In this document: positions 61,283-64,000 of the stretch, in pieces
Layout: each line of letters starts with the position of its first letter
How positions within the stretch are numbered: the first letter of the stretch is position 1
Assembly: GCA_018828585.1 (NCBI GenBank)
Contig: JAHJVW010000027.1
Coordinates: forward strand, 1 to 64,000
Origin: Bacteroidota bacterium
GTDB taxonomy: Bacteria; Bacteroidota; Bacteroidia; Sphingobacteriales; Sphingobacteriaceae
Direction of reading: 5' to 3'
DNA length: 64,000 nucleotides
Notes under the pieces: model-generated
What the model saw: only the letters and a program-made list of their open reading frames with translations
Database searches by the model: none
What the model was told of the DNA's origin: nothing
Position numbers and translations under genes: made by a program

Positions 61283-61666
61283 ATGGCAAATAACAAAATA
61301 CTAGTGATTGATGATGAGAGATTGATTAATAAATTTTTAGCATCAAGACTGGAAAGAGAAGCTTGGGATGTAGATACTGCAATTGATGGCATAGAGGCCA
61401 TGAATAAGATTACCCGAAATAAATATGATTTGATTCTTACCGACTTGATTATGCCCAATGTTGCAGGCTTAGAGTTGGTGATATACATTAAAAACTCAAA
61501 ACTCAATGCTGATGTACCTATAATTGTAATTTCTTCCTTGACTTCTGATAATGTAATTCTAGATGTTTTATCTATTGGAGTGGAGGAATATATTTCAAAA
61601 CCATTCTCTATGAATGTGGTAATTGCTAAGATCAAGCAAATTCTTGGGAAAAAATCTGTTGCCTAA
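61283..61666 (+). CDS. Single-domain response regulator
   Basis: A 127-residue receiver domain with no output domain. The acidic pair is D10-D11 (LVIDDERL), the phosphorylation site is D54 (LILTDLIMPN), the switch Ser/Thr is in IVISSLTSD and the conserved Lys lies in YISKPFS (about residue 107). It should act by protein-protein contact after phosphorylation; the kinase is not in view. It is 44 bp upstream of the HEAT-repeat gene and probably shares a transcript with it and the glycosyltransferase gene. Confidence 0.9.
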   Translation: MANNKILVIDDERLINKFLASRLEREAWDVDTAIDGIEAMNKITRNKYDLILTDLIMPNVAGLELVIYIKNSKLNADVPIIVISSLTSDNVILDVLSIGVEEYISKPFSMNVVIAKIKQILGKKSVA

Positions 61667-61710
61667 TCTTAGGTAGATCATTTTTTATAATAAAATAGTA
61701 CAACGCTTTT

Positions 61711-62838
61711 ATGTTCCATCCCTTCCATTGGCAACAATACCCTGTAATTATCATGATTGCGCTAGTAGTCTCATTTTTGGCCTTAGCCATGATTTTTGTT
61801 ACACTTGGAATAATCTATTTTCATAGGATTAAAACCGAGGATACAAATGAGGAAGAAGCAGCTTCAGAACTAATTATTATTGAGGAGTTAAATAAACACA
61901 TCTTACGCTATGATTCTTTAAATGAGGTTCCTGAAAAGGAATTACTAAACGTTATTAACAAACTTACAAGACTAAAGCAAAAAAGTCTGGTTTTTACAAA
62001 GGTTCTTACCAGAACTTTAATGAGTTTTAGCATACTCCTTACTGGAACAATTCAACTGGTTATCAACGCAACTTATAATCTTTTAAAACTTCAGGAAGAC
62101 ACCTTTAAAAAATTAAAGAGCAAACTTTGGTTTGTAAAAATAGAGGGGTTAAGAGAGGTGCAGGAAATAAATGATAACGATTCTATTTCACAAGTTATCA
62201 CCTTAACAAAGGATAATAATATTAATGTAAGAGTTTCAGCTTATGCTGCATTAATACAGCTTGATAGCAAGGAGAAATATAAATTTTTAGATGATGAACA
62301 AGAGACTTTAACCCTATGGCACCAGATTATCCTTACCAATGCCATGGAAAAGATAGATTCAAATGAACTCCCTGATTTTAAAAGATATTTAGGAAGCACC
62401 AATAATAGCATAGTACTATTATGTATGAAACTGATATTACATTACAACCAGCTTAACGCAGTTAGCAGCTTGATTAAACTGCTTAGCCATAAGGATGATG
62501 AAATAAGATGTTTTGTAATTCAAGCACTTGGAAAATTAAATGCAGATGAAGCAGAACAACAACTAATAGAACGTTATCCTAAAGAATCTTTAGGTAACAA
62601 AACACAGATATTGTTATCATTGGGAAATATCATAAGTCTTATCTCCCTAAAATTCTTAACAGATAAATTCATTAGAGGAGAGCATTTTGATATTCTAAAA
62701 AGCGCAGCGGAAGCTATAAATACTTTTCCGCAAGAGCTCAAAAAATTGGTTCCTATAGATTCTACTTTGTTAGATGAAAAGCAGATAACTTTAATTAAGC
62801 ATTATGAAGAACCTTTAAATTTGTATGGAAGCATTTAA
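61711..62838 (+). CDS. HEAT-repeat membrane protein
   Basis: A 375-residue protein with one N-terminal membrane helix (about residues 12-36), a charged helical stretch, a second moderately hydrophobic segment (about 95-115) and then HEAT-like helical repeats (about 130-350). Repeat units include NINVRVSAYAALIQLDSK, AVSSLIKLLSHKDDEIRCFVIQALGKL and AEQQLIERYPKESLGNKTQILLSLGN. The repeats should form a cytoplasmic scaffold. Its end overlaps the glycosyltransferase start by 14 bp, so it is probably an accessory subunit of that enzyme; this is inferred from arrangement. Confidence 0.75.
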   Translation: MFHPFHWQQYPVIIMIALVVSFLALAMIFVTLGIIYFHRIKTEDTNEEEAASELIIIEELNKHILRYDSLNEVPEKELLNVINKLTRLKQKSLVFTKVLTRTLMSFSILLTGTIQLVINATYNLLKLQEDTFKKLKSKLWFVKIEGLREVQEINDNDSISQVITLTKDNNINVRVSAYAALIQLDSKEKYKFLDDEQETLTLWHQIILTNAMEKIDSNELPDFKRYLGSTNNSIVLLCMKLILHYNQLNAVSSLIKLLSHKDDEIRCFVIQALGKLNADEAEQQLIERYPKESLGNKTQILLSLGNIISLISLKFLTDKFIRGEHFDILKSAAEAINTFPQELKKLVPIDSTLLDEKQITLIKHYEEPLNLYGSI

Positions 62839-64000
62839 AGAATGGTCACACTTCATCTTTAACAATGCAATTTATTATTATAGTGTGACTATAATGTTCA
62901 GTTATGGATTGTTGGCACTTTTTAGTCTACGGGAAATCAAAAAATACAAACAAAAAGATAATCTATTTGACTATCAGTTATTGTTAAGCTCTCCTTATTT
63001 ACCCAGTATTTCAGTTATCGCACCAGCTTTTAATGAGGGAAAGGTTATCCTTAATGGACTACAATCATTCCTTTCACTCAGCTATCCCAAGTTTGAGGTC
63101 ATCCTCGTTAATGATGGCAGTACTGATGATACTTTACAACAACTCATTGATGAATATGAACTGGTAAAGGTAGACTTTGCCTATCACGAGGTGATCAAAA
63201 CACAACCTGTTAAGCAAATTTTCAAATCAACCAACCCAGCTTATTCCAAATTGGTGGTTATCGACAAAGAAAATGGTAATAGCAAAGCGGATGCATCTAA
63301 TGCAGGGATTAATGCTGCAATTTATCCGCTATTTCTGTGTACCGATGTAGATTGTATCCTCCACAAGGACACCTTGATCAAATTGGTTAAACCATTTATA
63401 GAAGAACAAGATAGAGTCATTGCAAGTGGCGCAGCCATTAGGATCTCAAACTCTTGTGAAGTTAAAAATGGATACATCAAGAAGGTAAATGCACCCAGAC
63501 AATTTCTACCTCTTTTTCAGGAGCTAGAGTATATTAGAGCATTTATTTTGGGCAGGATGGCCTGGAGCAGTATCAATGCATTAATGCTTGTGTCTGGTGG
63601 TCTAGGCCTTTTTGATAAAGATATTGTGATAAAAGCAGGGGGCTACAATCATGTTTCTTTTGGCGAAGATATGGAACTCATCAGCAGAATGCGGATATAC
63701 ATGCATGACCATAAATTAAAATATAAGGTGCGCTACATCCCAGAATCCTTGTGCTGGACAGAAGTTCCCTCTGATATAAAAATTTTTGCTAGGCAACGTA
63801 CAAGATGGTCTAAGGGATTGGCACAAACACTATGGTTTCATAAAAAAGTAACTTTCAACCCAAAGTATAAAATATTTGGGCTCCTCACATTTCCCTACTT
63901 CATCCTATTTGAATGGCTTGCTCCTCTACTGGAATTTGGAGGAATCATATATTACATTTATCTTATTATTACAGGGCAGATTAATTGGGAATTTGCCATC
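62825..64000 (+). CDS. Family 2 glycosyltransferase (5' part, runs off the window)
   Basis: 392 codons are present and the frame stays open at the right edge. An N-terminal membrane helix (about residues 20-38) is followed by a GT-A domain: SVIAPAFNEGKVI (about 64-76), VILVNDGSTDDTL, FLCTDVDCIL (D-x-D), GGYNHVSFGEDMELISRMR and RQRTRWSKGLAQT (the Q-x-x-R-W motif). These together indicate a processive membrane glycosyltransferase that makes and exports a polysaccharide, as in poly-N-acetylglucosamine or cellulose-type synthases. Membrane helices resume near the edge. It overlaps the HEAT gene by 14 bp. Confidence 0.88.
   Translation, partial: MEAFKEWSHFIFNNAIYYYSVTIMFSYGLLALFSLREIKKYKQKDNLFDYQLLLSSPYLPSISVIAPAFNEGKVILNGLQSFLSLSYPKFEVILVNDGSTDDTLQQLIDEYELVKVDFAYHEVIKTQPVKQIFKSTNPAYSKLVVIDKENGNSKADASNAGINAAIYPLFLCTDVDCILHKDTLIKLVKPFIEEQDRVIASGAAIRISNSCEVKNGYIKKVNAPRQFLPLFQELEYIRAFILGRMAWSSINALMLVSGGLGLFDKDIVIKAGGYNHVSFGEDMELISRMRIYMHDHKLKYKVRYIPESLCWTEVPSDIKIFARQRTRWSKGLAQTLWFHKKVTFNPKYKIFGLLTFPYFILFEWLAPLLEFGGIIYYIYLIITGQINWEFAI

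Follow-up and report, generated by a model that had tools for sequence, protein, structure and literature searches.

What is known of how bacterial polysaccharide synthases are regulated post-translationally concerns mainly cyclic di-GMP (c-di-GMP). The closest described system, NfrB-NfrA of E. coli, combines a family 2 glycosyltransferase (GT2) with a TPR pore and receives c-di-GMP input through MshEN (PMC8669469). Herein, we analyzed a locus of a Bacteroidota bacterium (Sphingobacteriaceae) in which a synthase of this type lies next to a HEAT-repeat protein and a receiver. The window, that is, the whole stretch of DNA analyzed, comprised bases 1–64,000 of the 106,837-bp contig JAHJVW010000027.1, and the contig sequence past the window was also examined. 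At the end of the window, the list of open frames contained three co-directional genes on the + strand, encoding the receiver (REC), the HEAT protein, and the GT2 glycosyltransferase (GT). The cassette probably specifies two-component-controlled, synthase-dependent polysaccharide secretion, in which the synthase would have the HEAT protein as an obligate partner in the cytosol and would usually receive its input from REC.

The gene order was conserved far beyond the host. When 84,980 species genomes were searched with the GT alone, the best 80 named loci were examined, of which five ran into the end of their contig (L055, L069, L076, L110, and L111), leaving 75 evaluable loci. The HEAT gene was directly upstream of the GT gene or fused to it in all 75, and REC was near the GT in approximately 70 (about 65 upstream and five downstream). 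In contrast, the 30 best PF13641 GT2 loci of Bacteroidota, used as the control, contained no HEAT gene, no YaiO gene, and a single REC. An earlier note on this DNA had proposed a co-occurrence analysis and had named independent promoters together with the lack of a conserved neighborhood in relatives as what would speak against its interpretation; as to the neighborhood, the opposite was clearly observed, with the order kept from Bacteroidota to haloarchaea. Among 29 Bacteroidota loci retrieved with the HEAT protein alone, a GT was downstream in every one whose sequence stretch extends that far. In the haloarchaeal phylum, 10 of 247 genomes carried the HEAT protein, with HEAT-GT in all 10 and REC upstream in nine; in the Stutzerimonas phylum (Pseudomonadota), 8 of 398 genomes did, with HEAT-GT in all eight. 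Several Pseudomonadota clusters were ordered REC-YaiO-HEAT-GT.

In a FastTree phylogeny, the module GTs (113 rows) formed one branch with a support of 100 against 21 control GT2s, which is consistent with one origin of the association. The cassette was defined by a HEAT protein gene that directly precedes a GT gene of this clade or is fused to it, as is the case for the window locus, and the arrangement recurred across about a dozen phyla of bacteria as well as in haloarchaea. Carriers included Flavobacterium, Chryseobacterium, Chitinophaga, Polaribacter, Balneolaceae, Bdellovibrio sp. qaytius (complete chromosome), Stutzerimonas kunmingensis, Lysobacter, Mesorhizobium, Kurthia massiliensis, Sporosarcina, Paenibacillus zeisoli, Patulibacter americanus, Terriglobia, Gemmatimonadetes, Spirochaetales, and a Halobacteriales archaeon. 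Some of the carriers are metagenome bins and possibly mis-assigned, whereas the isolates among them are not; one cluster recorded as Beijerinckiaceae (L087) was of the Chitinophagaceae type, and its contig was probably mis-binned. Because REC-less and Asp-less cases exist, the invariant core is HEAT-GT, and REC is an input that is common without being universal.

The HEAT and GT proteins were also found as single chains of 946–1004 aa in Spirochaetota and Clostridium-like genomes (one of these frames, L159, reaches the end of its sequence stretch). The N-terminal half of the fusion was homologous to the HEAT family (338 columns, E 7e-18), and the fold of the GT half matched hyaluronan, cellulose, and chitin synthases. 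Separate HEAT proteins generally have a mostly uncharged N-terminus, a single transmembrane (TM) segment, and a basic stretch after it, indicating an N-out, C-in topology. According to hydropathy, three of four tested fusions had a TM segment at the HEAT end and another before the GT, while the fourth showed the first only; the further TM segments bring the catalytic domain of the GT back into the cytosol. So the HEAT protein and the catalytic domain lie opposite one another, both on the cytosolic side, whether they are fused or separate. The AlphaFold2 model of a 950-aa fusion (predicted local distance difference test, pLDDT, 87.5; predicted template modeling score, pTM, 0.82) suggests a defined domain arrangement.

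The features of the window locus and of the contig sequence that follows were as follows.

61283..61666, + strand: stand-alone receiver (REC), 127 aa (Pfam Response_reg, 2.1e-24; open frame)
61442..61444, + strand: phospho-acceptor Asp54 of the receiver (D in 75 of 85 module receivers)
61711..62838, + strand: membrane-anchored HEAT protein, 375 aa (Pfam HEAT_2, 1.7e-11; AlphaFold2 pLDDT 93.3, pTM 0.86)
61744..61833, + strand: N-terminal TM segment of the HEAT protein, aa 12–41 (hydropathy; long helix 12–68 in the model)
61987..62808, + strand: cytosolic alpha-solenoid of the HEAT protein, aa 93–366 (conservation in 73 sequences; model)
62825..62838, + strand: overlap of the HEAT and GT frames, 14 bp (open frames)
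62825..64000, + strand: processive GT2 synthase, of whose 478 aa the first 392 fall in the window (PF13641/PF00535 matches)
63344..63352, + strand: D-x-D motif of the GT (DVD, D174/D176; invariant in alignment A5)
63665..63670, + strand: E281-D282 of the GT (GED; general base position; invariant in alignment A5)
63794..63808, + strand: QxxRW motif of the GT (QRTRW, Q324–W328; Q, R, and W invariant in alignment A5)
contig 64272–66173: TPR-YaiO outer-membrane barrel (ATG start, 10 bp after the GT gene; a TTG at 64230 is an alternative start)
contig 66179–68404: DUF4838/F5-F8-type-C protein (5 bp after the barrel gene)

The gap between the REC and HEAT genes was 44 bp, and the GT gene was complete beyond the window, ending at contig base 64261. 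The earlier note, made from the sequence alone, had described a closely packed set of a stand-alone receiver, a membrane-anchored HEAT protein, and a Q-x-x-R-W glycosyltransferase, with a 14-bp overlap between the last two and a continuation beyond the window. All of this was borne out by the open frames, the Pfam matches (2e-20 for the GT2), and the HEAT model. It had suggested looking downstream for an outer-membrane barrel, a deacetylase, and a kinase; the barrel was found, and the gene next to it at this copy encodes the DUF4838 protein.

The HEAT_2 match of the HEAT protein scored 44.7 bits (cutoff 27.7). In its AlphaFold2 model, one N-terminal TM helix continues into the long helix and is followed by an alpha-solenoid, and the residues around the TM segment, uncharged before and basic after, give an N-out/C-in orientation. 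Conserved positions among the 73 sequences were G112, L127, W140, A177, W203, and a SxNxSVV-type motif at 229–235. A solved-structure relative of the whole protein was rejected, as only generic HEAT/ARM proteins and designed alphaReps were retrieved, mainly matching the repeat part, with a best TM-score over the query of 0.51. The canonical HEAT repeats of its C-terminal half are common to the PBS lyase CpcE, NblB, and alphaRep; the TM anchor and the N-terminal part lie outside the coverage of solved structures. HEAT protein carriers made up 54 of 395 genomes in the class sample of Bacteroidota (51 of 339 good-quality genomes). In several flavobacterial genomes the proteins were longer, at 720–1187 aa, with a long post-solenoid extension containing weak further HEAT-like repeats (L019, L020, L067, L068, L070, L072, and L073).

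The GT carries NDGS, DVD, GED, and QRTRW motifs together with C-terminal TM helices, as in processive GT2 enzymes of the HAS/BcsA/PgaC type, and its sequence shows a relationship to the synthases of hyaluronan, chondroitin, and cellulose. It is predicted to be a processive synthase making a long polymer. The assignment as a PgaC/IcaA synthase of poly-N-acetylglucosamine (PNAG; TIGR03937) was rejected, because the window GT and its second copy in the host scored 113.5 and 134.5 bits against a curated cutoff of 422. Two tandem GT genes followed a single HEAT gene in L079, L080, L083, and L087.

The receiver of the window was complete, with D10/D11, D54, S84, and K106, as in single-domain response regulators. 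Most module receivers were single-domain, and no single-chain REC-HEAT fusion was present among the fetched loci. In multidomain upstream proteins (GGDEF-REC, ODP-lactamase-GGDEF-REC, and Hpt-GGDEF-REC-REC), REC was usually C-terminal and directly before HEAT, L090 being an exception. An upstream gene with an ODP-type metallo-beta-lactamase fold, GGDEF, and REC was located beside a HEAT-GT fusion in L098, L114, and L116. The phospho-Asp position of the 85 module receivers was occupied by D in 75, E in seven, N in two, and G in one. HEAT-proximal receivers without the phospho-Asp, often with Glu instead, were seen in L104 (7121–7933), L113 (7085–7936), L116, L122, and L159, and may be a pseudo-receiver or a constitutively "on" form. 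Two Bacteroidota hybrid kinases upstream of REC were tested, and both had the order HisKA-HATPase-REC-Hpt, the architecture that usually serves as donor to a stand-alone receiver.

Control by c-di-GMP was rejected for the host. No GGDEF (PF00990) match was obtained in the host genome, while the control genomes gave matches, so the synthase input cannot be home-made c-di-GMP here. Likewise, neither the window GT nor the copy 2 GT had a Pfam match to PilZ or MshEN.

The host genome contained exactly three HEAT homologues, each flanked by a REC and a GT, and each of the two further copies was also linked to YaiO. Copy 2, 11 kb downstream on the same contig, was ordered REC-HEAT-GT-LtaS-like sulfatase, followed by a convergent YaiO barrel gene. 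Upstream of it lay a divergent GAF-histidine kinase gene, with HisKA just below the cutoff and no ATPase domain at threshold. Copy 3, on contig C63, consisted of REC-HEAT-GT-LtaS-like, accompanied by a YaiO barrel and by a PAS hybrid kinase with a C-terminal end that resembled Hpt by eye. The copy 2 barrel was well above the YaiO family cutoff, and that of copy 3 was a clear homologue. For each of the three proteins, copies 2 and 3 resembled each other most (REC 65%, HEAT 39%, and GT 73%), compared with 37%, 27%, and 48%–50% against copy 1; this parallel divergence is what joint duplication of the three genes would produce. The copy 3 GT frame was split in two at a run of eight T (L005, 9620–9660), which reflects either a true frameshift that may be phase-variable or an indel introduced by sequencing.

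Export and decoration genes accompanied the core. The barrel gene next to the window synthase belongs to the YaiO family (PF19413/TIGR04390; 126 bits, cutoff 23.9), and YaiO/TPR outer-membrane barrels accompanied most Bacteroidota clusters. LtaS-like proteins followed the GT in host copies 2 and 3. The YaiO barrel, DUF4838, and LtaS-like genes fit secretion with trimming or decoration, and they parallel BcsC, BcsZ, and BcsG. In Chryseobacterium, Sphingobacterium, and Empedobacter, the GT was fused to an LtaS/MdoB-like sulfatase-fold protein (L041, L042, L043, L044, L046, and L049; 1139–1178 aa), a sequence arrangement which suggests that the polymer is decorated while being made. In Bacillota, a protein of 1055–1089 aa without a Pfam match was encoded directly after the GT (L094, 10325–13594; L104, 10372–13539) and is a candidate export or anchoring component.

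In the mechanism that we propose, the GT2 would polymerize a nucleotide-sugar in the cytosol and move the growing polymer across the membrane by a channel of its own. The TPR/YaiO protein would provide a scaffold in the periplasm and the exit through the outer membrane, and trimming or decoration of the chain might fall to DUF4838 or LtaS/sulfatase-like enzymes. The HEAT protein would be an obligate synthase subunit held by one TM anchor, its solenoid lying on the cytosolic face beside the catalytic domain, and in the non-fused forms it would contact the GT there. A kinase or Hpt phosphorelay would phosphorylate the receiver, which we infer to dock on the HEAT solenoid in this state and to switch the synthase.

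Several observations weigh against this mechanism. HEAT-GT occurred without any REC nearby in L091, L093, L102, and L103 (L067 is cut upstream), REC was downstream rather than upstream in a few clusters, and 10 of the 85 receivers had no phospho-Asp. Considering these REC-less clusters and Asp-less receivers, REC phosphorylation is not always needed. Counts of promoters and terminators inside the cassette equaled the shuffled expectation and no site of the Bacteroidota -33/-7 promoter pattern was found at the cassette, so that promoter patterns are not informative on it; the interdomain confidence of the fusion model is expressed by the pTM alone. The earlier note had proposed a phosphorylation-controlled unit in which the HEAT protein links the receiver to the synthase. 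This interpretation was borne out in part. The unit is strongly supported by the conserved order, the HEAT-GT fusions, the Hpt-ended kinases, and the YaiO barrels, except that REC is not a universal member; the putative phosphorylation control cannot be universal either.

The same irregularities of REC, set beside an invariant HEAT-GT pair, would also fit a HEAT protein that is a constitutive structural or assembly subunit (for folding, oligomerization, or export-complex cohesion), with REC merely co-transcribed and acting elsewhere (a phosphate sink, for instance, or the feeder of another output). We consider this unlikely, since REC is still present in most clusters and occupies the same place in haloarchaea as in Bacteroidota, and a bystander would not keep the HEAT-proximal position that REC usually has in multidomain proteins. 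Receiver domains and alpha-solenoids are commonly targeting or docking modules, and Asp-less receivers fit a docking role; REC-HEAT might then set the location of the synthase (pole, division site, or surface contact) and not its catalytic rate. This is quite unlikely, as the obligate pairing and the covalent HEAT-GT fusion suggest an intimate effect on the enzyme. Regarding the product, it is somewhat unlikely to be an envelope polymer with phosphoglycerol-type groups (teichoic-like or osmoregulated periplasmic glucan-like) instead of an exopolysaccharide. An LtaS/MdoB-like sulfatase-fold transferase is indeed next to or fused with the GT in many clusters, host copies 2 and 3 and the GT-LtaS fusions included; however, the window copy has no LtaS-like gene, the barrels of most Bacteroidota clusters fit secretion, and the control mechanism would stay the same. 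Chance clustering of common gene families has a negligible probability: receivers and GT2s are abundant, but synteny across bacteria and archaea, against no HEAT gene in the control loci, refutes it.

REC-HEAT control of the synthase thus remains our preferred reading, and no description of a REC-HEAT-GT2 system was found in the open-access literature searched, in agreement with the earlier note, which knew of no system of this make-up. NfrB-NfrA (NGR) shares with the cassette a processive GT2 (DxD and QxxRW), a TPR-rich outer-membrane pore, a regulatory part joined to the GT across TM helices, and a local dedicated signaling protein, but it has neither a HEAT protein nor a receiver (PMC8669469). 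The host genome of the cassette is without GGDEF. The BcsA/B/C/G cellulose and PgaABCD (PNAG) systems share the inner-membrane GT2 synthase, the TPR and outer-membrane barrel, and a periplasmic hydrolase or decorating enzyme (DUF4838 at the window copy; the LtaS-like proteins of other copies are compared with BcsG). Unlike in these systems, no PilZ, BcsB, or PgaD was recognized in the operon, and control is apparently exerted by REC-HEAT. The fourth gene of the operon belongs to the YaiO family, whose name is silent on HEAT/REC control.

By analogy, REC-HEAT would take the role played elsewhere by PilZ, Alg44, PgaD, or MshEN with c-di-GMP. If so, the cassette offers a named, testable operon for phosphorelay on/off switching of a matrix polysaccharide in Bacteroidota, including Flavobacterium, Chryseobacterium, and Chitinophaga, and in other groups. 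More tentatively, with slightly less than even confidence, the HEAT solenoid may be a constitutive regulatory subunit of one GT2 clade in Bacteria and haloarchaea, read by a receiver that would be dedicated or (sometimes Asp-less) carried on GGDEF proteins. Such a general mode, if true, would stand to two-component signaling as PilZ stands to c-di-GMP and would account for the regulation of polysaccharide secretion in phyla without c-di-GMP. The cassette occurs in a GGDEF-less Bacteroidota genome and in haloarchaea, and its synthase is obligately paired with HEAT and usually accompanied by a receiver. We rate REC-HEAT-GT2 as a form of synthase-dependent polysaccharide secretion that is set apart by its new control module.
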